Notes under the pieces: model-generated
Database searches by the model: none
What the model was told of the DNA's origin: nothing
Seen by the model: only the letters and a program-made list of their open reading frames with translations
Position numbers and translations under genes: made by a program
NCBI RefSeq assembly: GCF_019972295.1
Contig: NZ_BLJA01000001.1
Coordinates: 2,670,158 to 2,734,157 of the forward strand
Source of the DNA: Geobacter sp. AOG2
Lineage (GTDB): Bacteria; Desulfobacterota; Desulfuromonadia; Geobacterales; Pseudopelobacteraceae
Reading direction: 5' to 3'
DNA: 64,000 bases
Shown: in pieces, positions 35,272 to 59,632 of the stretch
How the letters are laid out: each line of letters begins with the position of its first letter
Numbering within the stretch: position 1 is the stretch's first letter

Positions 35272-36645
35272 CTAAAAGTCATCGTTTTCGCGCTGTTTCT
35301 TGAGCATGTCGTCAAAATACAATTCCGGGGACGTCAACTTCGCTACCTCAGCTTCGCTGTATCCGAGGGCGCGGAAGTTCAACACGCCGTTGACGTTATG
35401 GCAATTCACGCAGGTCAGCGCCTTTGCCTTCGTAACGAGGTGACTGCTGGAGAAATAGATGGTCTGCCATCCCGGCTCAGCTTGGTACTTCTTTATTCCC
35501 AGCGTCTTGGCCGCCGAAGCGACACCGGCCAGCGCATCGCCGGTGGCCATGGGTTGGGCAAAGTCCATGGAGAGCAGGTTTCCGGTCAACTTATCGTAGT
35601 AAGCCTTGCCCTGGAAGATCTTGAAGGGGTAGATCTTGCTGGTCTTATCCCCACGGCTCCCCTTGGGACCGATAAAATGCGGTTCGTTACGGACGGTTTT
35701 GTTATACCAGGCATACACGGGGGTACTTTCGTTGGCTTCCCTCTTCAGGGTTGACGGCTCATAAAAGCCGTTCGCCTGTTTTTCCCATTTCGTGAAATTT
35801 TTCGCGCTCGCCCCGCCGGTCTTGGGAATATGGCAGGTCTGGCAAGCTATCCGGGCCGTATGGCGATTGTAGGCTTGATCCTTGTGGGGGTTTTCCGGGT
35901 GGCAGCCCGAGGTGGTACAGGTCAGCCGGATGCCGTCGTTCGCCCAGTTATTGGGGTCATAACCACTGGGGAAAAGGTGATCCTTGGCTTTATGACAGTC
36001 CGAGCATCCCATCTGCTTGGCGGCGTGCACATCGTTTGCCGGGGTAAAAGCGAAACCGCGCTTGATGTAAACACCACCGCCTGCCGCTTCGTGGCAGACC
36101 ATGCAGTTTTTGGTCTTGGGCTTGTCAATGGCCAATGCCGCCTTGGTAGTGCGGTCCTGGCCCATGACGATCCGGCCCTTCTCGTCTTTGTACGGCTTGC
36201 GGTGACTGAAGTCGTAGGCCGACGAATGGCAGATCAGGCAGTCAATGGCGGCTTCGGCCTCGGGACCCGTGCTCCCCACGTCGCTCACGTGGTTGCCCGG
36301 ATGGCAGGTATTGCAGCCAGAATACTTCGTTTTGCCGGCGGCGTTAAGCGGAATCTCCTTCAAGTTGTTGACGATGTCGTTGCCGTTGCACATGGTGTAG
36401 ATACGGTTTTTCATCCCGTATTCCTTGCCGGCTTCCAGGTTGTCGACGTTGTCAACCTTTGAGGCGTGCTTCCAGTGTACCGTTTCAAGAAACTTGCGCG
36501 CGGTTCCCGGATGACATTCTTCGCAGGTCGAGGGGCCCTTATATCCGTTCTTTTCGATATATTCGCGCCCAGGATGTTCCGCGCCCTGGGCGATGCCGGA
36601 TAACCCACACAGTAATGCCGCCGCTACCAACAACTTGAGATTCAT
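35272..36645 (-). CDS. Octaheme c-type cytochrome, possibly of the tetrathionate reductase (OTR) family
   Basis: A 457-aa protein with a cleaved signal peptide (MNLKLLVAAALLCGLSGIAQG). Seven CXXCH motifs (CEECH, CNTCH, CLICH, CMVCH, CSDCH, CQTCH, CVNCH) plus one CX4CH (CTTSGCH) predict eight c-hemes. The FLETVHWKH segment after the first heme and the overall size resemble octaheme tetrathionate-reductase-family cytochromes; membership is uncertain. Periplasmic, no lipobox. CGGAGG precedes the ATG. It is the second gene after the nonaheme cytochrome, 77 bp apart across an AT-rich gap. Such enzymes reduce sulfur or nitrogen oxyanions, which suits the neighbourhood. Confidence 0.82.
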   Translation of the reverse strand: MNLKLLVAAALLCGLSGIAQGAEHPGREYIEKNGYKGPSTCEECHPGTARKFLETVHWKHASKVDNVDNLEAGKEYGMKNRIYTMCNGNDIVNNLKEIPLNAAGKTKYSGCNTCHPGNHVSDVGSTGPEAEAAIDCLICHSSAYDFSHRKPYKDEKGRIVMGQDRTTKAALAIDKPKTKNCMVCHEAAGGGVYIKRGFAFTPANDVHAAKQMGCSDCHKAKDHLFPSGYDPNNWANDGIRLTCTTSGCHPENPHKDQAYNRHTARIACQTCHIPKTGGASAKNFTKWEKQANGFYEPSTLKREANESTPVYAWYNKTVRNEPHFIGPKGSRGDKTSKIYPFKIFQGKAYYDKLTGNLLSMDFAQPMATGDALAGVASAAKTLGIKKYQAEPGWQTIYFSSSHLVTKAKALTCVNCHNVNGVLNFRALGYSEAEVAKLTSPELYFDDMLKKQRENDDF

Positions 36646-36722
36646 GATCGCCTCCGAAACAGAAATTTTTCTAAATATACAAAATACAATATATATGTCA
36701 ATACAAATTTATATATATCAAA

Positions 36723-38468
36723 TTAATGTATGATGTGGGCCTTCGCAGCACCCGCGAGATCCCCCTTCGTTGCGTCATATCCCCCACGGTCGCGGATGGG
36801 AGGCAGGGCGAAATCACCCTTCACCTGCCATGCATCCTTCAAATATACCCACGGGGCCAGGGCCGACAGCGTGTAGCCGGGCTCCAGCTCGATTTTCTCG
36901 GAACGGATATTACGAATGAACAGGCCGCTTTTGTCGGCCACCACCTCGTGGCTGCCGTTGAACGGCAGCGCGCCGGGGTCGCCATACTCCCAGGAGACCT
37001 GCTGGCGCTGCGCCCCCTCCGGGTCGGCGTGGCAGGAGTCGCAGCTTCGCCCCTTGCCGTACTTGTGGGACATTTTGTCCATCTGGATCCAGAGCAGGGC
37101 CTTGTTGTTCTCCGGCAGGCCGCCGAAAAGCCCCACGTAGGCCCAGGCGTCGTCCGTCCGCTTCAGGCCCGGCAGGTCGGCGGGATACCGCCAGTGCAGC
37201 CCCGGCCTGAAGGGTGACGTAGTCTGGTTCATGACCGCCATGGGGAACGGTTTGACCGGAATCCACCGCCCCTGCTGATCCTTGAGCAGAAACGGCTCGG
37301 CCATGATCCCGTAATAGGCTTTGAACTTGAAGTAGGGGGTCGCCACCCCCGCCAGTTTTCCCGGCCCCCAGTAGGTCCCCTGGTAGCCCCCCACGTTGCG
37401 GATATGGCAGGCTTCGCAGGTCAGGTTCCTGTGCAGGGAAGCCTTATGTCTCCCGACAATCGCCGCGTGGCAGCGGATGCAGGAGTCGCCGGCCTGCCGC
37501 CTGACCATGGCGTGGCCGATGGCGGGGTTGCTTTTGGTACTTTCATGGCAATCGAGACACCCCACCTTGGCGGCCACGTGCACGTCCGGCGTCCCCCCCT
37601 CGGGGAAGGAAAAACTGCCGCCGAAGTACCCGGCCCCGCGGCGGCGGTCCTCAGGCCCGGCGTGGCAGACCGAGGCGCGCCCGTTACCGTAGCAGCTCTG
37701 CGGCGGCGGAGTCTTCGCAAAACTGTGCGCCCCTTTGGTCGGATCGGACGCGCTTTTGGGCTGGGGATTGTAGTGGCAGTCCAGGCACCCCACATGACAG
37801 ATGCTGCAACTCTTCTGTCCCTGGGCGGCAGCCCGGTCGCTCAACGGGATTGCGGTCGCGGCCCGCATCCCCTTCACGTTCCCCTCGAACCACGGCCCGC
37901 AGTTGTGCGGCCCGCGCTGTTCGTCGAGCCACCCCTTGTACTGGCTCTGTTTGCCGTTCTGGGCCATGGTGCTGCGGAGGAATTCGGCAAATTCCCGCTG
38001 ATGGCAACTGCCGCACGTTTGCTCCATCATGGTGAAGTTCTGAGAGAGGGTATCGCCACGTTTATCGTGGTACAGGATCGCGGTCACCGCCGTATCCCGG
38101 ACCTTCTTCCCCCCCTTGTCGGCGCTGACGAGCAGGCGGGCGGCGGGGCTGGCGCCAAACTCCAGCGGATACCTGCGCGGGGAGGTCATGACGGCGAACC
38201 CCTTCCCTACCCGCATAAGGCGTCCCATGCCCCGGTGGGCCTCGTCCGGCAGCCGTGCGGCCGGGTTGCCGCGATGGCAATCGCTGCAGGTGGCCGGCAT
38301 GCCGCTTTGGGCTTCGACCTCCTTTTGGGTGATCGTGAAGCCGGGATACCCCAGCTTTTTCATCGCCGGACCATCCTCGTGGCACCCTCGGCAGCTATCC
38401 GCAGACCAAGCCGCTACCGGGGCCAGCAGACACAAGCAAAACGCCAGGCAAAACTTCAACGGGATCAT
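36723..38468 (-). CDS. Multiheme c-type cytochrome with nine CXXCH motifs and one CX8CH
   Basis: ATG at 38468 is supported by AAGGAGG 5 bases upstream and gives a 581-aa protein with a signal peptide (MIPLKFCLAFCLCLLAPVAAW). Nine CXXCH motifs (CRGCH, CSDCH, CGSCH, CSICH, CLDCH, CLDCH, CIRCH, CEACH, CDSCH) are present, and CYGNGRASVCH between the fifth and sixth has Cys and Cys-His separated by eight residues, possibly a non-canonical heme site. No lipobox, so periplasmic or secreted. The last 140 residues lack heme motifs. Likely first gene of an operon with the octaheme cytochrome. Confidence 0.85.
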   Translation of the reverse strand: MIPLKFCLAFCLCLLAPVAAWSADSCRGCHEDGPAMKKLGYPGFTITQKEVEAQSGMPATCSDCHRGNPAARLPDEAHRGMGRLMRVGKGFAVMTSPRRYPLEFGASPAARLLVSADKGGKKVRDTAVTAILYHDKRGDTLSQNFTMMEQTCGSCHQREFAEFLRSTMAQNGKQSQYKGWLDEQRGPHNCGPWFEGNVKGMRAATAIPLSDRAAAQGQKSCSICHVGCLDCHYNPQPKSASDPTKGAHSFAKTPPPQSCYGNGRASVCHAGPEDRRRGAGYFGGSFSFPEGGTPDVHVAAKVGCLDCHESTKSNPAIGHAMVRRQAGDSCIRCHAAIVGRHKASLHRNLTCEACHIRNVGGYQGTYWGPGKLAGVATPYFKFKAYYGIMAEPFLLKDQQGRWIPVKPFPMAVMNQTTSPFRPGLHWRYPADLPGLKRTDDAWAYVGLFGGLPENNKALLWIQMDKMSHKYGKGRSCDSCHADPEGAQRQQVSWEYGDPGALPFNGSHEVVADKSGLFIRNIRSEKIELEPGYTLSALAPWVYLKDAWQVKGDFALPPIRDRGGYDATKGDLAGAAKAHIIH

Positions 38469-38907
38469 GGAGCCTCCTTTTTGCGGGTCAGGGATGCGGG
38501 TCGGCGATTTAACCAGTACCAAAAAATATTTTACCGCGTTTTAACGTAAAGTCATTGGACAGCGGTATAATAATGACAATGGCGTCGGCCACACTATTCA
38601 TTCAAAAATCAATATGTTGCAATATTGTTACGACATTGGGAGAGTATAGGCACTTTTTTTGCTTTATTCAACTTTCAATATATTCACTTAAAGAAATATT
38701 TTACTATTTCTATTTAAATGATATATCTTCGTCAAAAAAAATTCATCGAGGCCAGACACATTGAAAGGGGGTGAAGGCGGAACTGGCCGTGAACCGGGTA
38801 ATAGAACGGGACAATGGCGGCACGTTCCACGTCGTCATGCCAAGGGCTGATCCCTCACGAAGCTTCCGTGCGGGCAAGTTCGAAATACCAAATAAAAGGA
38901 GGAGACC
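38469..38907. other. AT-rich divergent intergenic region between cytochrome and porin genes
   Basis: About 440 bp, strikingly AT-rich at 38570-38755 compared with its GC-rich surroundings. It must hold promoters for both divergent transcripts. A 69-codon frame (38555-38764) is rejected as a gene. I could not fix a convincing promoter pair on either strand. AAAGGAGGAG at 38896-38904 is the porin ribosome site. Confidence 0.5.
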
Positions 38908-40602
38908 GTGAAGAAGAGAATACTGCCTATGCTGTTGGTCGGGTTGCTTGCGGGGATGAACCTTCCCCACCCGGCGCAGGCCGCCGACGAGGAGTTGCTG
39001 CAAAAGGTGGACAAGCTGTACAAGGAGATTGAAACCCTGAAGGGTTCGGTCAAGAAGGTGGAGAATAAATCCATCGGCAGATGGCTGACCATCGGCGGGG
39101 ATTACCGTTTTCGGTACGACTATCTGAAGGGTAGCACCAAGCCGTTTACCGATGTGAACGCAACCTTTACGAATGCTCAAAACGTTTTGCAGCAGGGGTA
39201 TTTCAACGCTGTGGCGGCAGGTGATGCCGCGGCGACCCAACAGTTTGCCGGGGCCATTGCCGGAATGACGTCTTTCTCTCAAGCAATGACCGGCGTGAAG
39301 ACCTATAATCAGGCCTTGACCTTCCTGGGGAACAACCAGGCAATGTTGGGCGCCTTGCAAAACTACGCCGTGACCGTTCCCGCATATAAACCGGAAAACG
39401 CCACCCTCTATACCAACAAGCTTGGCCTTGACCTGCATGCCAAGGCCACCCAGGATGTCACCGTCAACACCCGTCTCGTCATGTACAAGGTGTTCGGCTC
39501 CCAGGACGATCAGGCCGTCACCAACGGCGACGCCGCCCCCTATTTCGCCGACCGCGTCGGCGTATTCGACGGCACCCTTGGCCATGTTCCCTCCACCAGC
39601 TATCTGGACGTGGACCGGGCCTACGCCACCTGGAGCAACATCGCCGACCAGCCTCTCTGGTTCTCGGTCGGCCGCCGTCCCTCCACCAACGGCGCTCCCA
39701 GCAACCTGCGCCTCAACAATGAGCGCCCCGGCAACGGCGGTACCCCGTCGCTTCTGGTCGATTACGCCTTTGACGGTATGACCATCGGTTACGCCCCGGA
39801 CATCGAGATGCTGCCCGGCGCCTATGCCAAGGTTTGCTACGGCCGCGGCTTTGAGAGCGGCTTTCGCTCGACCCCCGCCAACTCCATCGCCGACACCGAT
39901 ATGCTCGGCGTCGCCGTGATTCCGATCGATACCGATCCGCTGCGCGTCTGGCTGCAATGGAACCGCGGTTTCAATATCTTCGACGCCCCGACCATGAACA
40001 ACACCTACTTCGGCAACACCGCACCCAAGGTCAACCTGGGCGATATCGACTGGTGGGGCGCCGGTTACATGAGCACGCTCAAGAAGGTCGGCCCCGGCGA
40101 CCTGAACTTCTTCACCGACGCCGCCCTGAGCGTAACCCATCCCAACAACAACGTCTCCGCTCAGTTCGGCTTCCAGGGACTCATGACCGGGGCCTTCTTC
40201 AACCCGGAAGCCCCGACCAGCAAAACCGGCTGGGCCGTATCCGCCGGGGTCCGCTACGACCTGCCGTCCAAGACCAAGCTGGGCTTCGAGTACAACCACG
40301 GTTCCAAAAACTGGATCACCTTTGCCCCTGCCGCCGACGACATGTGGACGTCCAAGGTCGGTACCCGCGGCAATGTGTATGAAGGGTACGTCATTCAGGA
40401 ACTCAACCTGAAACCGATCTCTTCCTACTTCAGCAAGACCTTCTTCCGCGTCGGTTACCAGTATTACGATTTCGAATACACCGGCAGCAACAACTGGGTC
40501 GGCGCACCGGTCAAGATGTCCGAGGTGAACGGGCAAATGATGACGACCACCCCGCTGGAATCCGCACATGACGTGTATGCGACCTTCGAGGTCCATTTCT
40601 AA
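38908..40602 (+). CDS. Outer-membrane porin (DUF3373-like) with N-terminal coiled coil
   Basis: A 564-aa protein starting at GTG after AAAGGAGGAG. Signal peptide (KKRILPMLLVGLLAGMN, cleavage near AQAA), a short coiled coil (about 27-52, DEELLQKVDKLYKEIETLKG), then a beta-rich barrel with RWLTIGGDYRFRYDYLKGS and a C-terminal Phe (FEVHF). This architecture matches large Geobacter porins of the DUF3373 type as I know them. It is divergent from the two multiheme cytochromes and could pair with them, or with the downstream reductase, as an outer-membrane channel. Confidence 0.8.
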   Translation: MKKRILPMLLVGLLAGMNLPHPAQAADEELLQKVDKLYKEIETLKGSVKKVENKSIGRWLTIGGDYRFRYDYLKGSTKPFTDVNATFTNAQNVLQQGYFNAVAAGDAAATQQFAGAIAGMTSFSQAMTGVKTYNQALTFLGNNQAMLGALQNYAVTVPAYKPENATLYTNKLGLDLHAKATQDVTVNTRLVMYKVFGSQDDQAVTNGDAAPYFADRVGVFDGTLGHVPSTSYLDVDRAYATWSNIADQPLWFSVGRRPSTNGAPSNLRLNNERPGNGGTPSLLVDYAFDGMTIGYAPDIEMLPGAYAKVCYGRGFESGFRSTPANSIADTDMLGVAVIPIDTDPLRVWLQWNRGFNIFDAPTMNNTYFGNTAPKVNLGDIDWWGAGYMSTLKKVGPGDLNFFTDAALSVTHPNNNVSAQFGFQGLMTGAFFNPEAPTSKTGWAVSAGVRYDLPSKTKLGFEYNHGSKNWITFAPAADDMWTSKVGTRGNVYEGYVIQELNLKPISSYFSKTFFRVGYQYYDFEYTGSNNWVGAPVKMSEVNGQMMTTTPLESAHDVYATFEVHF

Positions 40603-40757: not shown

Positions 40758-41081
40758 ATGAAAAAGATTCTCTCACTCGTTGTCCTGACGGCCCTGTTGG
40801 CATTCACCTCTCTGACGGTCGTTACAAACGCCAGCGCAGAAGACGTCAAGATGATCGGCGTCATCTCCAAGATCGAAATGGCCAAGGACGGCAAGTCGGC
40901 AACGGCAACCCTCAAGGACAACAAGACCGGGGAAAGCGTGCCCATTCTCATTACCGACGACCTGACCCTCGACAAATTCAAGGACAAGCGCATCGTGGAA
41001 GGTGATGAGATCCGCTGCAAGTTCGAAAAGGTAAACGACAAGAACAACAGCAAGATCTTCAAGAAAACGGCCGGGTGCTAA
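40758..41081 (+). CDS. Small exported protein with C-terminal Gly-Cys; possible ExtJ-like
   Basis: ATG at 40758 has AAGGAG 8 bases before it and gives 107 aa with a signal peptide (MKKILSLVVLTALLAFTSLT, cleavage near ASAE). The mature 80 residues look like a small beta-barrel (MIGVISKIEMAKDGKSATA, then KRIVEGDEIRCKFEK). The protein ends in KKTAGC; the Gly-Cys end recurs in two other exported proteins of this region. It resembles the small 'ExtJ' protein named with selenite/tellurite operons as far as I recall, so I leave the symbol blank. It precedes the rhodanese-heme gene. Confidence 0.65.
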   Translation: MKKILSLVVLTALLAFTSLTVVTNASAEDVKMIGVISKIEMAKDGKSATATLKDNKTGESVPILITDDLTLDKFKDKRIVEGDEIRCKFEKVNDKNNSKIFKKTAGC

Positions 41082-41246: not shown

Positions 41247-42650
41247 ATGACCGGAAATCCAGTTCTCCCCCGCATCCTCGCCGTCACGGCTGTAGCCCTC
41301 AGCCTGGCGGCAGGGACGCCGGCAGGCGCAGAAAGTGCGCCCCAGGCAAAATCTCTCATTCCCAAGATTTGTACCAATTGCCACAAAGCGGAAGCCAACA
41401 CCCTTCGGGGCTATTTTGATAGCGTCGCCTTCAAGGCCAGGACCATCCAGGTAAAGATCGACGATTCGGTGGAATTGGTCAGGTTCGACGAAGACGAGAT
41501 CAAGGTGGTGACCGCCGCAGGCAAGGCAATGGATGGCGAGGCGCTGCGCCAGACGAAAAAAGGCCAGGAAATCAAGATCGAGTACACGGAAGCGAACGGG
41601 GTCAAGACGGCGACCCGGCTGATAGAAAAACCGCCCGTAGCCGTTTCTCCCGGGATGCTCATGGCCACGGCCGAGGTTGAAAGGCTTGTGGCCCTTGGCC
41701 CGAAAAAGGGCGGGTACTTCCTGTTCGACTCCCGGCCGCTGCCCCGCTTCCGGGAAGGCTCCATCCCCACCGCCGTCAGCCTCCCCTTCGTATCCTTCGA
41801 CAAACAGGCGGGCGAATTGCCCGCGAACAAGAACGCCCTGATCATCTTTTACTGCTCAGGCCCGACCTGCAACATGAGTCCCGGGTCTGCCGCCAAGGCC
41901 CGTAAACTGGGCTACACAAACCTCAAGGTATTCAGGGACGGTATCCCGGCCTGGTCCGAAAAAAACTACACCGTCCTCTCGTCCCAATCCCTGAAAGAGG
42001 CCTGGCTGGACACGGGCACCCCCCATGTTCTTCTTGATGTCCGTTCTCCCAAAGAGATGGGCAGGGGCTTCATCAGCGGTGCGGTCGCCTTCCCGGCCGC
42101 CCGGTTCGCAAGCCTGGTCAAGGAACTGCCGCCTGCGAAAAGGAAACCGCCGATCATCGTCTATGACGGCCCGGGTGCCGGGCAGGCCGTGAAGGTGGCC
42201 CGGCAGTTGCTCAAGGCCGGTTACGGCGACGTGAAGGTCCTGCAGGGGGGCTTTTCGGGGTGGCGCGCCGCCGGATACGCCGCGGCAAACGGCACACCGG
42301 CCGCCAGAGCCGTCTATGTAGCCAAGCCCCGCCCCGGCGAGATTGATGTGGCGGCGTTCAGGAAATACGCGGCTGAACTTCCGCCAAACGTAACGATCAT
42401 CGATGTCCGCAATGCCGACGAGGTGAAGAAAGGCATGATCGCGGGCGCCGTCAACATCCCGGTGGAAGAACTCAGGGAACGCGCCTCCGGGCTTTCGAAG
42501 GACAAGTTGCTTATTACCCAGTGTTCGACCGGCGTACGCGCCGAGATGGCCTATCATGCCTTGAAGAATCTGGGATTCCCCTCGGTCGGATTCCTGAATG
42601 CCACGGTCACGTTCGGCAAAGACGGCAGTTACACCCTGTCGACGCCGTAA
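41247..42650 (+). CDS. Exported triple-rhodanese protein with an N-terminal c-type heme motif
   Basis: A 467-aa protein with AAGGAGG upstream and a signal peptide (cleavage near residue 27). CTNCH at about residues 42-46 would bind one c-heme. Three rhodanese domains follow. The first has an active-site loop FYCSGPTC (Cys present), the second reads VYDGPGAG (Cys replaced by Asp, so inactive), and the third has TQCSTGVRAEM (Cys present). Rhodaneses transfer sulfane sulfur (or selenium) via a Cys persulfide. Located directly before a Psr-like reductase, it may deliver or accept sulfane chalcogen in the periplasm. Confidence 0.85.
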   Translation: MTGNPVLPRILAVTAVALSLAAGTPAGAESAPQAKSLIPKICTNCHKAEANTLRGYFDSVAFKARTIQVKIDDSVELVRFDEDEIKVVTAAGKAMDGEALRQTKKGQEIKIEYTEANGVKTATRLIEKPPVAVSPGMLMATAEVERLVALGPKKGGYFLFDSRPLPRFREGSIPTAVSLPFVSFDKQAGELPANKNALIIFYCSGPTCNMSPGSAAKARKLGYTNLKVFRDGIPAWSEKNYTVLSSQSLKEAWLDTGTPHVLLDVRSPKEMGRGFISGAVAFPAARFASLVKELPPAKRKPPIIVYDGPGAGQAVKVARQLLKAGYGDVKVLQGGFSGWRAAGYAAANGTPAARAVYVAKPRPGEIDVAAFRKYAAELPPNVTIIDVRNADEVKKGMIAGAVNIPVEELRERASGLSKDKLLITQCSTGVRAEMAYHALKNLGFPSVGFLNATVTFGKDGSYTLSTP

Positions 42651-49924: not shown

Positions 49925-49937
49925 TGCGCAATACGCA
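49925..49937. promoter_or_regulatory. Possible LysR box (T-N11-A)
   Basis: TGCGCAATACGCA: arms TGCG and CGCA around five bases, with the T-N11-A pattern of LysR operators, 29-41 bp upstream of the LysR start in the divergent intergenic region. Confidence 0.35.
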
Positions 49938-50062
49938 TGGGTACATGAAAAACTTTCGTTTTAACTATAAAGCATGTCGAGGCTAGAATACAACCGCAAT
50001 CCAGGTGGTTGAGCGTTAAATTGCATTGAAGAATTCTTGAGGGATGTGACCGGGAGGGTACG

Positions 50063-50380
50063 ATGAATCGCTTGTGCAGCGCGATGCTCTGTTTGACATG
50101 CCTCTGCCTCACAGGCCCCGCCTATGCCGATTCCCTGATTATTACCTATCGAAACGGAAACACGCAAACCGTTCCCCTCGACGAGAAAAGCTCCTCCATA
50201 CAGTCTCTGCACTATCTGCCGGCCGATGCTCCGGCCTCGATAAACAAACCCGTTATTCCCAAGCCGCATGATGCGCCGGGTGTTCAGGACAAACCCGAGG
50301 CACAGGCGCAGGAATCCAGGGAAAAGGCGCAAAAACCCGCTTTCCGGATCAAATGGGCGGACCCGGCTACAGAGCAATAG
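50063..50380 (+). CDS. Small exported protein of unknown function, divergent from LysR
   Basis: A 105-aa protein with GGGAGGG upstream and a signal peptide (MNRLCSAMLCLTCLCLTGP, cleavage near AYA). A short N-terminal mature segment, DSLIITYRNGNTQTVPLDE, reads as a beta-hairpin; the remainder is Pro/Lys/Gln-rich and disordered-looking. There are three cysteines, all in the leader. No family recognised. It is 262 bp before the Ext-like operon and has a terminator after it. Confidence 0.65.
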   Translation: MNRLCSAMLCLTCLCLTGPAYADSLIITYRNGNTQTVPLDEKSSSIQSLHYLPADAPASINKPVIPKPHDAPGVQDKPEAQAQESREKAQKPAFRIKWADPATEQ

Positions 50381-51983: not shown

Positions 51984-52045
51984 CGTCGTAGAATCATGTG
52001 TTCCGGCTTTTCGGTAATTATATTTCGAGCGAAGGAGATAACTCC

Positions 52046-53254
52046 ATGTCTATAATCAGTAAAATCAGTACGGCGACTGCCCTGATATTAGGTTTTGCCG
52101 GCACGGCCCTTGCGGGCCCCCAAATGACCTTTGGGCCGAATGACGAGGGCCTGCTGCAATTGGATTACAAGGGACAATTCCAGATGGTGGTGCGTGACAC
52201 CGGCACCGGAGCGGACAAGTCGAATACCACCACCGACTTCAACTTCAGGCGCAACCGCCTGGCGTTGATGGGGCGTTACGGCGACATCATGGGCCTCTAT
52301 GTGCAGACGGAATTCACGGAGAACCAGAACGTCACGCCGCTGACCGTCACCGATGGCGATGCCGGCACCGATTTCTCGCTGCTCGATGCGGTGGCGCGTT
52401 TCGACTTCAACAATGCCTTCAACGTGTATGCCGGCAAGTTCAAATACAACCTGACCCGCGAGAATCTGGACGCCTGCGAGAACCCGCTGACCCTCGACCG
52501 CTCGCTCTTCATCCGCGCACCGTATGTCAGTACCCGCGACAAGGGGGTCGCCATCTGGGGCAACCTCTTTAACGACATGTTCCAGTACCGGGCCGATGTC
52601 ATGAACGGCCGCAGCGCCAGCGGCGACGTCACGCCGAAATCCAATTTCCGCTATTCCTTCCGCGGCCACGTGTCGCTCCTCGACCCCGAAAACACCTACG
52701 GCTACAAAGGGACCTACCTGGGCAAGAAAAAGGTCCTCACCATCGGCGGGGCCTATCAGTTCGAACCGGATGTCGCCTATTCCGACGCGGTCAACAAGAC
52801 CGGCTCGGTGGATTACAAAGGGTGGACGACCGACCTGTTCTTCGAATACCCGCTTGAGGGCATGGGAACGGTCACCTTTTCCGGGGCATACGAGGACATC
52901 GACCTGGGCGACGCCTACAAGGGAGCCAACCCCGATGCCGGCACCATCGGCATTACGGGACAGAAAAACGGCTGGTACGTCAAGGCCGGCTACATGCTTC
53001 CCACCGTGCCGCTCCAGATCTTCGGCCGCTATGAGAAGTGGAAGTTCGCCGCCCTCAACCTGAGCAGCAGCGGCCTCACCACGGACACCATCTACGACCA
53101 GCGGGTGGACTGGTTCGGGGTCGGCGCCAACTACTATTTCCGCGATCAGAACCTGAAGCTCACCTTCGAGTACAGCAACACCGATTTCGACAAGACCAAC
53201 GCATCGACCAAGGACTACAACACCTTCATCACCCAGCTCCAGGTTATTTTCTAG
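52046..53254 (+). CDS. extI: Outer-membrane porin (ExtI-like)
   Basis: ATG at 52046 follows GAAGGAGA by 7 bases and gives 402 aa with a signal peptide (cleavage near ALAG). The mature protein starts PQMTFGPNDEGLLQLDYKG, then a beta-rich barrel with FNFRRNRLALMGRYGD of phosphate-selective porin-like proteins, and ends QLQVIF with the barrel-assembly Phe. It follows the rhodanese lipoprotein gene by 62 bp and is closed by a terminator. In Geobacter, ExtI is a porin needed for selenite/tellurite handling as I recall; identity here is by context. Confidence 0.75.
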   Translation: MSIISKISTATALILGFAGTALAGPQMTFGPNDEGLLQLDYKGQFQMVVRDTGTGADKSNTTTDFNFRRNRLALMGRYGDIMGLYVQTEFTENQNVTPLTVTDGDAGTDFSLLDAVARFDFNNAFNVYAGKFKYNLTRENLDACENPLTLDRSLFIRAPYVSTRDKGVAIWGNLFNDMFQYRADVMNGRSASGDVTPKSNFRYSFRGHVSLLDPENTYGYKGTYLGKKKVLTIGGAYQFEPDVAYSDAVNKTGSVDYKGWTTDLFFEYPLEGMGTVTFSGAYEDIDLGDAYKGANPDAGTIGITGQKNGWYVKAGYMLPTVPLQIFGRYEKWKFAALNLSSSGLTTDTIYDQRVDWFGVGANYYFRDQNLKLTFEYSNTDFDKTNASTKDYNTFITQLQVIF

Positions 53255-53277: not shown

Positions 53278-53311
53278 AACCTGGCAGGTCTCGCAACCTG
53301 CCAGGTTTTTT
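53278..53311 (+). terminator. Rho-independent terminator after the ExtI-like porin
   Basis: A perfect 12-bp stem AACCTGGCAGGT / ACCTGCCAGGTT (53278-53289 / 53296-53307) with a 6-base loop and T-run. It separates porin and cytochrome transcripts or attenuates readthrough. Confidence 0.92.
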
Positions 53312-53382: not shown

Positions 53383-55245
53383 ATGCCGATTCCATTTACG
53401 ACCCACGGCAGAGTCCCTGCCCTGCTTCTGCTGTTGTGCTGGTTTCCGGTGATGTTCGCCGGATGCCGGGGAGCAGAGAAGACATCCTCCTGCGTGCAAT
53501 GCCACAAAGGTATCGAGGATGTCTCGAAGAGCCATGGGGAGTGTGTTTCGTGCCATGGCGGCAAGCCCAGGGAAATGGATAAGAAAAAGGCGCACCAGGG
53601 TATTTTCGGCATCTCCAGCCCGGAGTACATCGGACGTTGGGAGAACGGCTGCGCCCCTTGCCACCGTTACCAGTTCGAGCGGATGAAGAGTAACCTGATG
53701 TACACTGCCGCCGGGATGATCCGTAACATCCAGTTGACCTGGGAGGGAGAGGACGGCAACCGCTACACCGCCCATGGCGAAAAACAGTACGATGCCGAAG
53801 GCATGCCGATTTCCCCCAAGCCGGTGGCGAACCTGAATAACCTGTCCGGTGAACTGTACCGTAAATTCTGCGCCCGATGCCATGTGGGGGCACAGACCTC
53901 CGGCGTCTATGCCGCCAGCCACGGCTCCGGCTGCGCCGCCTGCCACTTTCCCTGGAACGACGCCGGCACCTACGAGGGGGGCGACAAAACCATGCGGGGC
54001 AAGGGAGGGCATTCCGCCAGCCATGCCTTAAGCGCCCTGCCCGACACCCGCACCTGCTCCCGCTGCCACAACCGGAGCGGCAGGATCGCCCTCTCCTACC
54101 AGGGGTTGTACGACGGCAACAACGGCCTGGTCCCCACCAGGGGGGGCGAAGGGGGGCCGGAGATGGCCAGCGGGGCGCGGAATCTGGTGCACATCGCCCC
54201 CGACGTCCACTTCAGCGCCGGCATGGAGTGCATCGACTGCCACACCTCGCGGGACGTGATGGGGGACAGCTATTCGTACCGCAACATGTATCTCCAGACC
54301 GAAACCGCCTGCGAGGATTGCCACGGCAGCGCCACCCGGCCGCCCCGCTACCGGGAGATCGCCCGGGAGAACGACGAGGCGCTGCGGGAATCGAAGAGCT
54401 ACAAGATACAGATGCGTCCCGGCATGAAGATGATCCTGACCGCAAAGGGACGCAGCTATTCCAACGTGTTTTTCCGGGACAACCAGGTCTGGGTGCTGGG
54501 CAAGCGGAGCGGAAAACTGCACCGCAGCAAGGTGATCACCGGCACCCCGGAGCATACCATCGCCGGGCACGGCCGCCTGGAGTGCTATGCCTGCCACTCC
54601 CGCACCTCGGTGCAGTGTTACGGCTGCCATACGAAATACGACAAAACGGTCGCGGGCAGGGATTTCATCAAGGGTGCGGACACGCCGGGCGCCTTCAGCG
54701 AAACCGAGGACTACCGCACCCCCTACCCCTTCCCTCTGGCGCTCAACCAGCGGGGCCGCATCTCGCCGGTGACGCCCGGATGCCAGACCTTTGTGACCGT
54801 GGTGGAGGCGGACGGCCGGAACTCCCGGACCGAGTACGTGTCGCGCTTCAAGGGGCGGCAGCAGTTGCGCTTTGCGCCGTTTTACTCCCACAATACCGGG
54901 AAAAGGGCGATCGGCTGCGCCGAATGTCACGGCAACCCCGCCTTCCTGGGGTTCGGCCAGCATGTGGTGGAGGGGAACGCCATCCGCGGCACCCTGATCT
55001 GCGAGCGTTCGGACGGCAAACCGCTGGACGGGTTCCTGACCCTGGAGAACGGGCGGGTCAAGGCCTTCTCGGCCATAACCAGGGAGAACGCCCGGCCCCT
55101 GAACGGCGGCGAGATCAAGCGGGCGCTCTCGGTCAACCTCTGCCTCCCCTGCCACGTCCGGGCCAACGACCCGATCTACCGGAAAGGACTGGACTACCGT
55201 GCCCTGGATGACACGCTTCATCGCCGCCTGCTGTCTGACCGCTAG
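53383..55245 (+). CDS. Dodecaheme c-type cytochrome lipoprotein
   Basis: A 620-aa protein with lipobox VMFAGC (Cys28), predicting an outer-membrane or cell-surface lipoprotein. Twelve CXXCH motifs: CVQCH, CVSCH, CAPCH, CARCH, CAACH, CSRCH, CIDCH, CEDCH, CYACH, CYGCH, CAECH, CLPCH. Conserved non-heme stretches (GRLECYACHSRTS, PYPFPLALNQRGRISP) suggest a defined enzyme or conduit fold. With the porin upstream and the nonaheme protein downstream, a transmembrane electron conduit is likely. It overlaps the next gene by 47 bases. The spacing of AAAGG to ATG is loose. Confidence 0.88.
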   Translation: MPIPFTTHGRVPALLLLLCWFPVMFAGCRGAEKTSSCVQCHKGIEDVSKSHGECVSCHGGKPREMDKKKAHQGIFGISSPEYIGRWENGCAPCHRYQFERMKSNLMYTAAGMIRNIQLTWEGEDGNRYTAHGEKQYDAEGMPISPKPVANLNNLSGELYRKFCARCHVGAQTSGVYAASHGSGCAACHFPWNDAGTYEGGDKTMRGKGGHSASHALSALPDTRTCSRCHNRSGRIALSYQGLYDGNNGLVPTRGGEGGPEMASGARNLVHIAPDVHFSAGMECIDCHTSRDVMGDSYSYRNMYLQTETACEDCHGSATRPPRYREIARENDEALRESKSYKIQMRPGMKMILTAKGRSYSNVFFRDNQVWVLGKRSGKLHRSKVITGTPEHTIAGHGRLECYACHSRTSVQCYGCHTKYDKTVAGRDFIKGADTPGAFSETEDYRTPYPFPLALNQRGRISPVTPGCQTFVTVVEADGRNSRTEYVSRFKGRQQLRFAPFYSHNTGKRAIGCAECHGNPAFLGFGQHVVEGNAIRGTLICERSDGKPLDGFLTLENGRVKAFSAITRENARPLNGGEIKRALSVNLCLPCHVRANDPIYRKGLDYRALDDTLHRRLLSDR

Positions 55246-56452
55246 TCTGGCACTGGCGGCGGCCGCCTCCGGGGGGCTCCCGGCGACACCGGGAAAAACC
55301 GCCCGGTCCGCACCCCACAGCGCCCTGCCTTGCGTCGCCTGCCACAGGCTCGGGGGGAGATACAGCGATCCCGCGTCCAGAGGGAACCGCGCCGCGGGGT
55401 GCATTACCTGCCACCGGGGGTACGACGCCATCTTCGACCGGCCCATGGCGACCCGGCTCGGGGAACAGCAGTTCGTCCAGCGCAGCTATGCCAAATGGGA
55501 CAGCGGCTTCTTTGCCAAAAACTGCTCCTCCTGCCATGTGCGGGGATGCCTGGACTGCCACGGCAACGCCCACGCCATGGTCAGGCCGGGCATGGCCGCC
55601 TGCCAGACCTGCCACAAGGGGTACTACACCGGGTGGGACTATGCGGGGCGGGCGCCGCGTGAGGATAACATGCGCTATCAGCGGGGCCTGGCGGTCAACG
55701 GCGAAACCTTCCTCAAGATGCTGCCGGACGTGCATTACCGGGCCGGCATGACCTGCTCCACCTGCCACACCATGGCCAGCCTGGCCCAGGGGAAGAAGGC
55801 GGCCAAGGGATGCCGGGAGTGCCACCGTCCGAGCCCGAAGGTCGTTGAGCACCGCATCGCCGCCCATCTGGAGCGGCTGGAATGTTATGCCTGCCATTCG
55901 GCCTGGGCACCCCAGGAGTACGGCACCTTCTTCCTCCGTTTCCGAGACCCGCGGCAGAAGGAGGATTTCGACCTGAGGCCGGGGGAAAGCGGTGAATACC
56001 TGCGGAGCGCGTACCTGAGAAAACAGGACGCTCCGCCCCTGGGGTTCAACGCGGCGGGGCGGCTGAGCCCGATCCGGCCGCAGTTCATCGCCTATTACAC
56101 CGATATCCAGTCGGCCCGGAACAGCGGTCCCGAGAATATCCTCCTGGCCGCGGAGTGGCGGGCCTTCTTCCCCCACACGGTACAGCGGGGGACCGTCACC
56201 TGCGAGGGGTGCCACGACAACCCGCGCCGGTTCCTGCTGGAGCGTCCCTCGGAGCGCATCTATCAACTGAGGCGGGACGGCATGCAGCTTGACTCCTTCT
56301 GGTCCCAGGAGGGGCAGAAGATCGTGAACGGCACTTTCATGACAGCTTCCCGCTACCGGCGCATGGCCGGCAAGGGACCTGCCTACACAAAGGCGTACAT
56401 CGAAAAATGGAAAACGTTCCTCAATCGCGTCGAACCTTCATCGCGTCCCTGA
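55199..56452 (+). CDS. Nonaheme c-type cytochrome
   Basis: A 417-aa protein, GTG at 55199 or ATG at 55208, both giving a signal peptide (FIAACCLTASLALAAAAS). Nine CXXCH motifs: CVACH, CITCH, CSSCH, CLDCH, CQTCH, CSTCH, CRECH, CYACH, CEGCH. No lipobox: the two cysteines at CCLTA sit in the leader but not at a typical -3/-1 context. Probably the periplasmic partner of the 12-heme lipoprotein. Its C-terminal half shares the pattern 'ERLECYACHSAWAPQEYG ... GFNAAGRLSPIRP' with the 12-heme protein, indicating common ancestry. It overlaps the Rieske gene by 46 bases. Confidence 0.88.
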   Translation: MPWMTRFIAACCLTASLALAAAASGGLPATPGKTARSAPHSALPCVACHRLGGRYSDPASRGNRAAGCITCHRGYDAIFDRPMATRLGEQQFVQRSYAKWDSGFFAKNCSSCHVRGCLDCHGNAHAMVRPGMAACQTCHKGYYTGWDYAGRAPREDNMRYQRGLAVNGETFLKMLPDVHYRAGMTCSTCHTMASLAQGKKAAKGCRECHRPSPKVVEHRIAAHLERLECYACHSAWAPQEYGTFFLRFRDPRQKEDFDLRPGESGEYLRSAYLRKQDAPPLGFNAAGRLSPIRPQFIAYYTDIQSARNSGPENILLAAEWRAFFPHTVQRGTVTCEGCHDNPRRFLLERPSERIYQLRRDGMQLDSFWSQEGQKIVNGTFMTASRYRRMAGKGPAYTKAYIEKWKTFLNRVEPSSRP

Positions 56453-56805
56453 CCGCGCTTTTCTGTTCCGCACTGCTGCTCCGGCGGTACCTCACGCCGC
56501 GCAAGGCGGCCGGCGGTAAGGCACTGGCCAGCGTGGCCAAGACCGAGATCCCCGCACAGGGAGCCCTGGTCTTCCGCGAGGCGCGGGTTGCGCTCATGCG
56601 CTCCGGCGACGATATCTACGCCCTGAGCCTGGTGTGCACCCACCTGGGCTGCACCGTGAACGTCGCCCCTGACGGATTGTCCTGCCCCTGCCACGGCAGC
56701 CGGTTCGACCGCAGGGGAATGGTGACGCAGGGGCCCGCGGACCGGCCGCTCCGGCGGATGAGGGTTGAGGAAAGAGAGGGCATGATCGAGGTGACCGCCG
56801 TATGA
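56407..56805 (+). CDS. Rieske [2Fe-2S] protein
   Basis: A 132-aa protein with an N-terminal SRRTFIASLTALFCSALLL anchor (twin-arginine-like) and a Rieske domain: CTHLGC (C77, H79, C82) and CPCHGS (C93, H96) hold the cluster and disulfide. It takes electrons from quinol at the cytochrome b subunits encoded next. The start lies within the nonaheme cytochrome gene and the stop overlaps cytochrome b (ATGA). It fits the b-type complex FeS subunit described for ext operons. Confidence 0.92.
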   Translation: MENVPQSRRTFIASLTALFCSALLLRRYLTPRKAAGGKALASVAKTEIPAQGALVFREARVALMRSGDDIYALSLVCTHLGCTVNVAPDGLSCPCHGSRFDRRGMVTQGPADRPLRRMRVEEREGMIEVTAV

Positions 56806-57422
56806 TCCGGGAGTTCGTCAAACACCTGTTCCCGCGGGTGGTGCTGGAGCGCAATCTGGCGATCAGTTACACCCTCTGCCTGGGCGGACTGGCCTTCACC
56901 GCCTTCCTGCTGATGGCCGCCAGCGGCCTGTTGCTCATCGTCTATTACCAGCCGACCCCGGAGCGGGCCTTCACCTCCATCCTCTTCCTGGAGTCGTCGG
57001 TGTGGGGGGGCGCCTACCTGCGCAGCCTGCACCGGCTCTGTTCCCACGCCTTCCTGATCCTGATCTTCCTCCATACCCTGCGGGTCATCCTCACCGGAGC
57101 CTATCACCGGCCGCGCCAGCTCAATTGGGTGATCGGATTCCTGCTCCTCTGCCTGGGCCTTTTCGAGGCCTATACCGGCTATCTGCTCCCCCTGGACCAG
57201 TTGGCCTACTGGGCGACCCAGACCGGCATGGAACTCCTGACAACCGCCCCCCTGGGCGAACACCTGCGGGCCATGCTGGTGCCGGACGGCGTCGGCCAAC
57301 CCCTGTCCCTGCTCCGTTTCTACGCCTTGCACATCGTCATCATACCGCTGACCCTCGGTGCCCTCTCCATGCTGCATTTCTACCGGGTACGAAAAAACAA
57401 GGGGGTGCTCCCCTACCTATGA
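56802..57422 (+). CDS. Cytochrome b N-terminal (b6-like) subunit
   Basis: A 206-aa polytopic protein with four helices. Heme-ligand histidines are in SLHRLCSHAFLILIFLHTLR and FYALHIVIIPLTLGALSMLH. It is the quinol-oxidising part of a bc-type complex; the C-terminal half is encoded separately by the next gene with an ATGA overlap, as in b6/subunit IV systems. The products pass electrons to the Rieske protein and the tetraheme cytochrome. Confidence 0.92.
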   Translation: MIREFVKHLFPRVVLERNLAISYTLCLGGLAFTAFLLMAASGLLLIVYYQPTPERAFTSILFLESSVWGGAYLRSLHRLCSHAFLILIFLHTLRVILTGAYHRPRQLNWVIGFLLLCLGLFEAYTGYLLPLDQLAYWATQTGMELLTTAPLGEHLRAMLVPDGVGQPLSLLRFYALHIVIIPLTLGALSMLHFYRVRKNKGVLPYL

Positions 57423-57835
57423 AACAGGGATTCGTCAAAAGCTCTCCCGTTTTTTTCCGGCTCATCGCCCGGTCGGGGCTCTTCTTCGCGGCGGCGCTGC
57501 TGGCGGCGGCGATGGTCGTCCCGGCGCCGCTCCAGGAGGCGGCCAACCCGGCCCTGACCCCCAACCCGGTCAAATCGGCCTGGTTTCTGCTCTGGATCCA
57601 GGAACTGGTCAGCTATTCCCGCTTCATGATCTACCCGGTCATGGCGCTGGGAGGCCTGTTCCTGCTCCTCCCCTGGCTCCCCTGCGGAGGGCGTCCGTAT
57701 CAGGCCGCCTGGTTCCCACGGGAACAACGGGCCGTCAACCTGCTGGCGTGCGGCGCTTTCATCGTCATCGTGGCGCTTACCGTCATCGCCCTGTTCTTCC
57801 GGGGGACAAATTGGTCGCTCTCCTTTCATCCCTGA
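57419..57835 (+). CDS. Cytochrome b C-terminal (subunit IV-like) subunit
   Basis: A 138-aa membrane protein beginning with ATGA overlap to the b6-like gene. Three hydrophobic helices (about 14-38, 60-85, 106-130) and the PALTPNPVKSAWFLLWIQEL segment containing the conserved PNP-x-K-x-x-W of subunit IV. It completes the quinone-binding side of the complex. The 3' end overlaps the tetraheme cytochrome gene by 25 bases. Confidence 0.85.
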   Translation: MKQGFVKSSPVFFRLIARSGLFFAAALLAAAMVVPAPLQEAANPALTPNPVKSAWFLLWIQELVSYSRFMIYPVMALGGLFLLLPWLPCGGRPYQAAWFPREQRAVNLLACGAFIVIVALTVIALFFRGTNWSLSFHP

Positions 57836-58659
57836 CCGTTCTCCTTTGCCTGCTCTCCCCGCCCGCCTGGGCCGGACAGGGGCAAAGGTGCCTGAACTGC
57901 CACCCCTCCCATTACGGGGACCGGGGCGCCTGCACCGACTGTCACCGGGGCAACCCCCTGTCCAAACGGAAGAACGTCGCCCATCACCTGCTGATTCCCG
58001 GACGCTACGCCCGCTTCACCCTGGGGGACACCACGGAGGTTGTACAGGGAAACCGCCTGCTGGAACAGCTTGCCTGCCGGCGCTGCCATGTGAGCGGCGG
58101 CAAAGGAAATCGCCTGGCCACCTCCCTGGACACCCTGCCCGCGACCAGGGTGCCGGGGGAGATTGCAGCCTCCGTCATGTCGCCGGCCCTGGGCATGCCC
58201 GACTTCAAATTGGACGAGGCCCAGGTGGTGACCGTCGTCAATGCCCTGTTTGCCGGAGCCCGGAAGGGGGAACGGCGGGAACGGGAACGGCCGCTGGTGG
58301 TCTTTTTCGAGAAGAGCGGACCGGCCGCGAAGGATGTGTTCAGCCGCACATGCGGCCCCTGCCACCGCATGCTCACCATGGGGCGGGGCCTGCTCGGGTC
58401 GGGGACCATAGGCCCGAACCTGTCGGGCCTCTTCTCACCTTTCTACCCTCCCACCTTTGCGGGCGGAAAGCCCTGGACCGCGGAGCGTCTGACGAAGCGC
58501 CTGCACAATCCCCGGCAGGTTTCCACCTTCGCCCTCATGCCGCCGGTGCCCCTCAATGCTTCAGATTTGAAGGAACTGAAGGCCCTGCTCGCGACAGAGG
58601 GCGACGGCACGGCGAATATGCTTGTGCATCCACCCGGAAAACAATATGATTTCCCCTAA
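57811..58659 (+). CDS. Tetraheme c-type cytochrome, periplasmic
   Basis: The best start is TTG at 57811, GGGGGA 4 bases upstream, which begins directly with a signal peptide (VALLSSLTVLLCLLSPPAWA) and gives 282 aa. Motifs CLNCH, CTDCH, CRRCH and CGPCH predict four hemes; the last is in a class I cytochrome domain with a likely Met ligand in FALMPPVP. It likely accepts electrons from the Rieske/b complex for the periplasmic and outer-membrane cytochromes. Confidence 0.82.
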   Translation: MVALLSSLTVLLCLLSPPAWAGQGQRCLNCHPSHYGDRGACTDCHRGNPLSKRKNVAHHLLIPGRYARFTLGDTTEVVQGNRLLEQLACRRCHVSGGKGNRLATSLDTLPATRVPGEIAASVMSPALGMPDFKLDEAQVVTVVNALFAGARKGERRERERPLVVFFEKSGPAAKDVFSRTCGPCHRMLTMGRGLLGSGTIGPNLSGLFSPFYPPTFAGGKPWTAERLTKRLHNPRQVSTFALMPPVPLNASDLKELKALLATEGDGTANMLVHPPGKQYDFP

Positions 58660-58680: not shown

Positions 58681-59115
58681 ATGACACGAAACACAACACT
58701 GATCGGCATCACGGTGGCACTGTCGCTGTCCGCAACGGCGCAGGCCGCCCTTGCATTCCCCAAAGACGGCTTCGGCAACCACTCCGCAAACAAAACGGTT
58801 TCCCAAAAGCAGCCGGCCCTTTCCGGCACGGTGGCGGAACTTTATAAAAACAAGAATACGCTCAACAAGAAAAAGGTTGCGGTACGAGGCAAGGTCGTCA
58901 AGGTTGCCACGGGGATCATGGGGAAAAACTGGGTCCATCTGAGGGACGGCAGCGGCAGCGCCAAGAAGCGGACCAACGATCTGACCGTCACCACCCGGGC
59001 GTTACCCAACGAGGGGTCGACGGTCACGGCGGTGGGGATACTCCACAAGGATCGGGATTTCGGCGCCGGCTACAAGTACGAGTTGATCATCGAAGATGCC
59101 GAACTCCAGCCCTGA
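58681..59115 (+). CDS. Exported OB-fold-like periplasmic protein
   Basis: ATG at 58681 has AAAGGAG 6 bases upstream and gives 144 aa, with a signal peptide (cleavage near AQA or ALA). The core GKVVKVATGIMGKNWVHLRD and STVTAVGILHKDRDFGAG is typical of a periplasmic OB-fold domain often found with cytochrome genes. It may be a heme-chaperone-like or binding protein; role unknown. It overlaps the DUF523 gene by 20 bases. Confidence 0.7.
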   Translation: MTRNTTLIGITVALSLSATAQAALAFPKDGFGNHSANKTVSQKQPALSGTVAELYKNKNTLNKKKVAVRGKVVKVATGIMGKNWVHLRDGSGSAKKRTNDLTVTTRALPNEGSTVTAVGILHKDRDFGAGYKYELIIEDAELQP

Positions 59116-59632
59116 CCCCGCGCCCGTACCCATCGCCGTGGGCGTCAGTTCCTGCCTTTTGGGGGAGCGGGTCCGCTACGACGGCGGCCACAAGCATGAC
59201 CGTTCCATAACCGGCTGTCTGGGGCGTCTGTTCCGGCTCGTGCCGGTCTGCCCCGAGGTGGGATGCGGCCTGCCCACGCCCCGGGAACCCATGAGCCTGG
59301 AGGGGGACCCGGCCGCTCCCCGCCTTGTGGCGAACATGAGCCGGATCGACCTGACCGACCGGATGCTGACTTGGTGTGCAAGGCGGGTTGTGGATTTGGA
59401 AGGCGAGAATCTGTGCGGTTTCATCTTCAAGAAGGGTTCGCCCAGCTGCGGTCTGTACCAGGTGCCGATCCACGACGGCGGAGCGGTCAGGAACGGCGCC
59501 GGCCTGTTTGCGACGGCCTTGACCCGGCGCTTCCCCCTCATGCCGGTGGAGGAAGAGGGACGCCTGAGCGACCCAGGCTGCCGCGAAGAGTTCATCCAAA
59601 GGGTCCTGGACTATCGGCGTGAAAGGCTTTAA
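59096..59632 (+). CDS. DUF523 / TudS-like FeS desulfidase family protein
   Basis: A 178-aa cytosolic protein with conserved cysteines in VGVSSCLLGERVRYDGG, CPEVGCGLP and KKGSPSCGLY, the DUF523 (YbbK) signature. Characterised members (TudS) hold a [4Fe-4S] cluster that takes sulfur from 2-thiouracil. The start is inside the previous gene (20-base overlap), placing it last in the Ext-like operon. A link to sulfur or selenium removal is plausible but inferred. Confidence 0.88.
   Translation: MPNSSPDPAPVPIAVGVSSCLLGERVRYDGGHKHDRSITGCLGRLFRLVPVCPEVGCGLPTPREPMSLEGDPAAPRLVANMSRIDLTDRMLTWCARRVVDLEGENLCGFIFKKGSPSCGLYQVPIHDGGAVRNGAGLFATALTRRFPLMPVEEEGRLSDPGCREEFIQRVLDYRRERL

Follow-up and report, generated by a model that had tools for sequence, protein, structure and literature searches.

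We analyzed a 64,000-nucleotide stretch of DNA from Geobacter sp. AOG2 (contig NZ_BLJA01000001.1, positions 2,670,158 through 2,734,157; herein the window), which lies in a 3.92 Mb single-contig genome. An earlier note on this DNA had described positions 35272 through 59632 as one composite island for chalcogen respiration, joining a Psr-type reductase to an ext operon. The gene content of 35272 through 58659, read from open reading frames (ORFs), heme motifs, Pfam and NCBIfam, bears out its list of parts: an octaheme and a nonaheme cytochrome, two porins, PsrABC, a rhodanese-heme protein (herein hRhd), a chemoreceptor, a LysR regulator and an ext operon (Table 1). The proteins ending in Gly-Cys that it had counted, ExtH and a small OB-fold protein (orf141, herein OB-GC), are also real; a further one, the Lys-rich peptide of Table 1, was absent from its list.

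Sequence and its conservation divide the locus into three modules. The first, herein the Psr head, runs DUF3373 porin, OB-GC, hRhd, PsrABC and Lys-rich peptide; the second, ExtM, ExtN/O, Rieske protein, cytochrome b, ExtQ and ExtS, would supply electrons; the third is an ExtHI head with its own LysR regulator. ExtH, ExtI, ExtM, ExtQ and ExtS score above their NCBIfam cut-offs and ExtP below; ExtJ and the selenoprotein ExtKL are absent between ExtI and ExtM, where the gap is 128 bases. The octaheme cytochrome has eight heme motifs and scores 146.6 bits with TIGR04315 (octaheme tetrathionate reductase family), short of the cut-off of 375. We place the Lys-rich peptide at the end of the Psr operon because a terminator-like hairpin starts 21 bases past its stop; promoter- and terminator-like sites are no more numerous in the window than in its shuffles.

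Table 1. Positions, strands and defining properties of features in the window
Feature	Position	Strand	Properties
Octaheme cytochrome c, related to tetrathionate reductase family	35272..36645	-	7 CXXCH + 1 CX4CH
Nonaheme cytochrome c	36723..38522	-	9 CXXCH
DUF3373 outer-membrane porin	38908..40602	+	PF11853, 523.5 bits
OB-GC (orf141), exported OB-fold protein	40758..41081	+	end -FKKTAGC
hRhd, heme-rhodanese	41247..42650	+	1 CXXCH (c-type heme), beta domain, 3 rhodanese domains
PsrA-like molybdopterin catalytic subunit	42950..45154	+	Tat-like signal, Mo-ligand Cys176
PsrB-like 4Fe-4S subunit	45147..45707	+	
PsrC/NrfD-like quinol-site membrane subunit	45719..46687	+	PF03916, 116 bits
Lys-rich exported peptide, unannotated	46778..46996	+	72 aa, end -KKGKKEVSGC
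Terminator-like hairpin closing Psr operon	47018..47041	+	10-bp stem, then T-run
Chemoreceptor (MCP)	47140..48789	+	rarely conserved here
LysR regulator, multiheme-cytochrome-associated subfamily	48931..50112	-	NF041036, 350.8 bits (cut-off 210)
ExtH lipoprotein, rhodanese	50643..51983	+	NF040901, 380.8 bits (cut-off 200); Gly-rich tail -GGGGTGSGC
ExtI porin	51998..53254	+	NF040900, 653.4 bits (cut-off 150)
Terminator-like hairpin between extI and extM	53278..53307	+	12-bp stem
ExtM, 12-heme cytochrome	53383..55245	+	NF040943, 1039 bits (cut-off 800)
ExtN/ExtO-like 9-heme cytochrome	55199..56452	+	NF040967, 627 bits; NF040968, 634 bits
Rieske iron-sulfur protein	56407..56805	+	PF00355
Cytochrome b (ExtP-like)	56802..57422	+	PF00033; NF040969, 224.2 bits (below cut-off 290)
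ExtQ membrane subunit	57422..57835	+	NF040970, 179 bits (cut-off 150)
ExtS cytochrome lipoprotein	57832..58659	+	NF040971, 326 bits (cut-off 100), on longer frame 57358-58659, residues 158-409

Conservation and modular build across the order

The order-wide comparison covered 141 genomes, the window's own included. PsrA (at least 50% identity; weaker matches were left out) is encoded by 48 of them and ExtM by 88 (84 over the cut-off). All but two of the PsrA genomes (46/48) also encode ExtM; the exceptions are G084 and G055, the latter with an ExtM-like piece beside PsrC. Where both occur, a single contig has them no more than 20 kb apart in 38 genomes; in G125 the distance is 25 kb, and in 7 they are on different contigs. 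The linkage spans 13 genera and four families, and random placement would give about 0.5 of 46; both figures ignore relatedness. The earlier note had named as the case against one composite locus that Psr and Ext modules never co-occur in relatives, and these counts show the opposite. Judged from genome sequences, this is not a chance neighborhood: the Psr head and the ext supply module are kept together across the order.

The other parts follow PsrA to differing degrees. hRhd (counted at 44% identity or more, with lower matches left out and 61 rows used for linkage) lies within 20 kb of PsrA in 35 of the 39 genomes with both, and closer than 2 kb in 29; the octaheme cytochrome is within 20 kb of PsrA in 21 of 30. 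Linkage counts for ExtI omit matches weaker than ~1e-168 and find 13 genomes that also have PsrA, with the pair within 12.1 kb in 9, at 29 kb in G125 and on other contigs in 3; restoring the weaker matches raises the genome count to 17 of 48.

Gene order in relatives separates the modules further. The Psr operon continues into the ExtM module with no ExtH or ExtI between them in G044, G045, G066 and G001 (in G066 a nonaheme gene intervenes, and the stretch ends inside ExtM), while G047 joins ExtH, ExtI, two small or pentaheme genes and ExtM through ExtS without this PsrA, with hRhd in front of ExtH. ExtM through ExtS therefore seems to be one electron-supply module with alternative heads, Psr or ExtHI, of which the window has both; the ext bc-type module may accordingly be a general source of electrons for exchangeable heads. 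In G047 (L085/L086) we also observed, after ExtS, a PsrB-like gene and a distant PsrA-like, molybdopterin-type protein of 1083 residues.

The octaheme, nonaheme, DUF3373 and OB-GC genes form a block of their own (35260 through 41080). It recurs in three of five other same-genus genomes (G114, G115 and G117) at 82 to 83% nucleotide identity with different neighbors. Searches of these three for PsrA, ExtM and ExtI found no match, and the hRhd search gave only a weak partial match in G114. Since they carry the block without Psr or Ext genes, the window joins a genus-level block to hRhd, Psr and Ext; the single island of the earlier note survives in that PsrA and ExtM stay together, but it is better described as an assembly of modules.

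The OB-GC family occurs in 117 of the 277 genomes of a class-wide search, every one inside this order. A DUF3373 gene stands directly upstream in all 44 distinct copies with enough flanking sequence, and the next gene downstream is hRhd in 27, the octaheme gene in 12, PsrA in 1 and none of the panel in 4. In 64 of the 70 compared genomes with both, no more than 5 kb separates OB-GC from the octaheme gene; OB-GC matches weaker than 1.7e-32 were left out of this count, and the total is 70 rather than 71 because a split octaheme match in G050 was dropped. The trio of DUF3373, OB-GC and octaheme genes also occurs without Psr, hRhd or Ext genes (L209 through L212, L214 and L215) and with a distant hRhd (L213), 6 to 16 kb being seen of each.

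Conservation at the edges of the modules was judged from 28 stretches of relatives. A relative of the chemoreceptor (61 to 64%) takes the same position in two of them (G071 and G124), so this gene, which the earlier note had counted as part of the locus, is not a general member. LysR genes of the NF041036 subfamily neighbor both kinds of head, a Psr head in three genomes (G109, G124 and G075) and that of ExtH in G071 and the window itself; this argues against the possibility, also raised in that note, that the two modules answer to unrelated cues. Homology of the window LysR begins at about residue 73, and its true start is therefore probably internal; passages of PMC6148476 describe LysR genes opposite extHIJKL clusters, with stated exceptions. 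The conserved island stops at ExtS (58659), short of the 59632 proposed earlier. The two genes that follow, an OB-like gene (58675-59115) and a DUF523 gene (59096-59632; 2-thiouracil desulfurase, PF04463), have no match in the 28 stretches and are not consistent members of the locus; the OB-like gene has one match outside them, in L213.

Gly-Cys C-terminal ends

OB-GC ends exactly in Gly-Cys in all 45 distinct homologs, and in 57 of 57 when copies were picked by an internal signature blind to the tail. In an alignment of 25 sequences Cys107 is invariant and Cys87 is not. The AlphaFold2 model shows an OB fold with modest confidence (predicted local distance difference test, pLDDT, 71.5; below 50 in the tail); the top Foldseek match is a telomerase OB domain (1.9e-4), with SilF, CusF and CcmE further down the list. 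We considered OB-GC as a stand-alone form of the hRhd beta domain, with which it shares strand and helix order in the models, but the profile comparison was not significant; an alignment with ExtJ covers just the signal peptides and a few residues. Neither homology is claimed.

The same ending recurs in ExtH, where 27 of 28 intact relatives end in Gly-Cys and the remaining one in His-Cys, in each case after a variable Gly/Ser-rich tail (the list was reduced from 33 by removing L087 twice as fragments and L110, L002 and L089 as other rhodaneses). The window ExtH has Cys only at 30, 321 and 446, presumably the lipobox Cys, the rhodanese Cys and the last residue. ExtJ ends in QGC or AGC (16/16), a count that is circular because the ORFs were chosen by their Gly-Cys end.

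The single Cys of the Lys-rich peptide is likewise its last residue, and 27 of 30 distinct Lys-rich small exported ORFs picked without regard to the tail end in Gly-Cys. By a tail pattern, 43 of the 141 genomes have the peptide, and the reversed pattern matches in no genome; those with hits make up 38 of the 48 genomes with PsrA and 5 of the 93 without it (Fisher 1e-19), counts that are circular for the tail itself and not for the association with PsrA. Of 46 copies, 38 lie within 10 kb of PsrA or ExtM, and seven of the ten PsrA genomes missed by the pattern have a variant-tail peptide that still ends in Gly-Cys (G082, G100, G124, G131, G020, G036 and G055). A different Lys/Ala-rich exported ORF, ending AAPAAK, directly follows OB-GC in two same-genus genomes without Psr (L109:15882-16157 and L114:3408-3641).

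Such ends are rare in the background. By a crude gene caller and export test, 332 genes were called in 360 kb of the window genome, six of which end in Cys and one in Gly-Cys (not export-like); a single one of the 122 export-like genes has a final Cys, which does not follow Gly. We tentatively propose, at rather less than even odds, that the ends of OB-GC, the Lys-rich peptide, ExtH and ExtJ are a shared functional end group: a terminal-thiol relay in the periplasm and at the cell surface that would link rhodaneses, multiheme cytochromes and the Psr-type reductase by passing sulfane sulfur or selenium among them, a kind of carrier not described before.

A heme-rhodanese and its candidate selenocysteine relatives

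The hRhd of the window has a Cys203/Cys208 pair in rhodanese domain 1, no Cys in domain 2, and Cys426. Across 26 aligned sequences Cys203 and Cys426 are invariant and Cys208 nearly so. Its structure model (pLDDT 81.9) resembles multidomain sulfurtransferases, with 1yt8 at the top (6.8e-13) and a whole-chain template-modeling score of just ~0.2; the TsoB model gives 54 bits on domain 1, far under its cut-off of 805. In G033, G039, G029 and G038, hRhd is followed directly by a nonaheme-like gene (a 37 to 38% relative of the window nonaheme).

The window copy has no in-frame UGA. In relatives, an in-frame TGA stands at the position of Cys208 in all 15 TGA copies examined, out of 19 flagged rows (G129, G128, G133 and G137 were left out). 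Each of the 15 is followed by a hairpin resembling a selenocysteine insertion sequence (SECIS), with a 5-nt loop, a G within the first two loop positions, a distance of 21 nt and a minimum free energy (MFE) of -11.7 or lower; the stems form two groups. All 15 agree with the bacterial SECIS rules given in passages of PMC13188914 (loop of 3 to 9 nt, G in the first two positions, 16 to 37 nt from the UGA, MFE of -7.5 or lower). An Rfam scan of one UGA copy (L174) gave no match, and a shuffle test of single hairpins no significance (z -0.45 to -1.08); the case rests on the fixed position, the two stem groups and the published rules. We regard hRhd in several relatives (e.g., L174:8622 and L196 through L208; CxGxT[C/U]) as a candidate heme-rhodanese selenoprotein, which would add to the known selenoproteins and may itself handle selenium or sulfur.

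Rhodanese selenoproteins of forms 1 through 5, including TsoB, likewise have selenocysteine (Sec) within a rhodanese domain; passages of PMC13188914 list them as UxxS, UxxG, CxU and UxxxxU, and the CxxxxU of hRhd relatives does not appear in that text, which names ExtKL and an octaheme of TIGR04315 among selenoproteins. The window genome has two selB-like genes over the cut-off, though its own hRhd uses Cys. In same-genus G117 (L110), a gene that reads as SelB-like adjoins the octaheme/nonaheme block.

Function, rival explanations and known systems

The closest solved chain to PsrA is Thermus thermophilus 2vpw_A (named thiosulfate reductase), which we take to be a Psr; the alignment runs end to end (residues 6 through 730, E 3.8e-220), and Cys176 is aligned with a Cys of that chain that is presumably its Mo ligand. 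The operon encodes the B (Fe-S) and C (NrfD) subunits looked for as a mark of the PsrA/PhsA/SrrA lineage. PhsA model NF012032 gives 547.3 bits, under its curated cut-off of 694, plasmid-borne enterobacterial PhsA is ~33% identical, and Tat model PF10518 gives 21.2 bits on the signal, slightly below its cut-off of 22.7. Sec in PsrA was rejected because the TGA flagged on many matches falls in aligned column 732, the natural end. A second PsrA class (54 to 57% identity) has the order A, NrfD-like (DsrP-like, weak), B (DsrO-like) in place of A-B-C (L079:8064-12175; also L075 and L105).

The families fit the chalcogen assignment of the earlier note, PsrA being nearest to thiosulfate/polysulfide reductase and the ext operon being tied to selenite and tellurite by the extI mutant described in passages of PMC5877670. 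We put the probability at roughly 55% that this is a periplasmic chalcogen-respiration locus built from modules, in which quinol drives the reduction of sulfane sulfur, possibly also selenite or tellurite, and terminal thiols serve as carriers; what we infer are the substrate and the role of these thiols. Menaquinol would be oxidized by PsrC, with electrons passing via PsrC and PsrB to PsrA, and in parallel by the Rieske/cytochrome b complex, which would feed the multiheme cytochromes. PsrA would reduce sulfane sulfur, as polysulfide or thiosulfate (selenite or tellurite being possible), and the rhodanese domains of hRhd and ExtH would form protein persulfides or perselenides. From these, sulfane sulfur or selenium could be handed to OB-GC, the Lys-rich peptide and ExtH at their free C-terminal thiols; these thiols may shuttle it between the porins and PsrA, either as mobile carriers or as swinging arms. 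The porins would let substrate in or product out, the cationic Lys-rich peptide could bind anionic polysulfide, the hRhd heme and octaheme cytochrome may resolve S-S or S-Se bonds, and ExtH, as a lipoprotein, could carry out transfer at the outer membrane. Such a relay, if true, would be a new kind of chalcogen carrier, and the tails would bear on how cells deal, outside the cytoplasm, with chalcogens that are toxic or insoluble.

Several observations weigh against this reading. The sole phenotype found concerns selenite and tellurite, for extI in another species (passages of PMC5877670). ExtI exceeds its cut-off in only 17 of the 48 PsrA genomes, the four additions with weaker matches lying on other contigs, and 20 of the 59 genomes with hRhd lack this PsrA. 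Profile comparison showed no homology of OB-GC with ExtJ or with the beta domain of hRhd. Of the Lys-rich small ORFs, three end in AAK: one lies elsewhere in the window genome, and the other two directly follow OB-GC in Psr-less genomes of the same genus; three short uncalled background ORFs with a signal-like start end in Gly-Cys (probably spurious). OB-GC paralogs stand as orphans beside genes unrelated by eye in eight places (L216 through L223, in G125, G102, G092, G138 and G075), and the six copies resolved by the ORF caller all end in KTAGC; a Gly-Cys tail therefore need not mean chalcogen.

Selenite or tellurite, rather than sulfane sulfur, could be the main substrate: PsrA would be SrrA-like, the terminal thiols would act like glutathione in a Painter-type reaction, and Se0 or Te0 would lie outside the cell. 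NCBIfam names the ext genes for selenite and tellurite, SrrA sits in the PsrA/PhsA/SrrA lineage (passages of PMC7331816), and loss of extI lowers selenite and tellurite reduction in G. sulfurreducens; that phenotype, however, is accompanied by heme-protein changes (passages of PMC5877670 for both). We nevertheless think this unlikely, if far from negligible, as ExtI matches over the cut-off are missing from 31 of the 48 PsrA genomes, and sulfane sulfur is favored both by the three rhodanese domains and by the nearness of PsrA to thiosulfate/polysulfide reductase.

The orphan OB-GC copies away from chalcogen genes, and the sharing of tails by exported proteins of different families, in the manner of sorting signals, would also suit Gly-Cys ends that are attachment points and not carriers, whether they tether the proteins to cytochromes or porins through disulfides or mark them for an export or sorting enzyme. 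This we find doubtful: none of the tails inspected shows the hydrophobic stretch or the charges typical of sortase-type signals, and their partners are rhodaneses and a sulfur-type reductase. Arsenate or another oxyanion is a very improbable substrate, since the ArrA model matches PsrA with 167 bits against a cut-off of 1600 while the PhsA model gives 547, and we know of no part for rhodaneses in arsenate respiration; in its favor, ArrA is a sister lineage (passages of PMC7331816) and an arr operon is reported in Geobacter lovleyi SZ (passages of PMC2500031). That the modules are neighbors by chance or through recent insertion in one genome, as the bare block of G114, G115 and G117 might suggest, is refuted by the linkage of PsrA to ExtM.

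Returning to reduction of sulfane sulfur by a modular locus, the parts resemble several known systems. With PsrABC/PhsABC (Thermus thermophilus 2vpw) the window shares the A-B-C subunits, the Mo-ligand Cys, a Tat-like signal and the NrfD subunit. Wolinella PsrABC works with the Sud rhodanese, and a rhodanese neighbor is common to both. The window differs in that its hRhd combines a c-type heme with three rhodanese domains and in the attached Rieske/cytochrome b-multiheme module and Gly-Cys proteins. SoxY and DsrC are sulfur carriers with a near-C-terminal Cys; like them, the proposed carriers are small and would be loaded by sulfur enzymes, but their folds and tails differ: an OB fold or a low-complexity chain whose final residue is a Cys preceded by Gly. 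SrrA of Bacillus selenitireducens, of the same lineage as the window PsrA, is likened by description only (passages of PMC7331816).

The enzyme family and the ext operon are already known; their standing union, the peptide, the shared Gly-Cys ends and the CxxxxU heme-rhodanese appear to be new. None of the papers listed in literature searches describes this locus or a C-terminal Gly-Cys tail in its title or opening abstract lines, and passages of PMC5877670, PMC6148476, PMC7331816, PMC2500031, PMC13188914 and PMC9312934 contain neither the Psr-ext union nor the Lys-rich peptide, Gly-Cys ends or a CxxxxU heme-rhodanese; those of the first two found under cysteine and C-terminal terms have nothing on Gly-Cys ends. 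One conserved locus joins two literatures, that of Psr/Phs sulfur reductases and that of ext conduits named for selenite and tellurite. Compared with extHIJKLMNOPQS of Geobacter sulfurreducens (passages of PMC5877670 and PMC6148476), the window shares ExtH, ExtI, ExtM, ExtQ and ExtS and a LysR upstream on the opposite strand, but leaves too little space between ExtI and ExtM for extJ or extKL and has a Psr head attached. NF040968, named iron-sulfur subunit ExtO, scores its 634 bits on the 9-heme cytochrome, whereas ExtO is the Rieske protein in passages of PMC5877670; the name of this model looks mixed up with ExtN.

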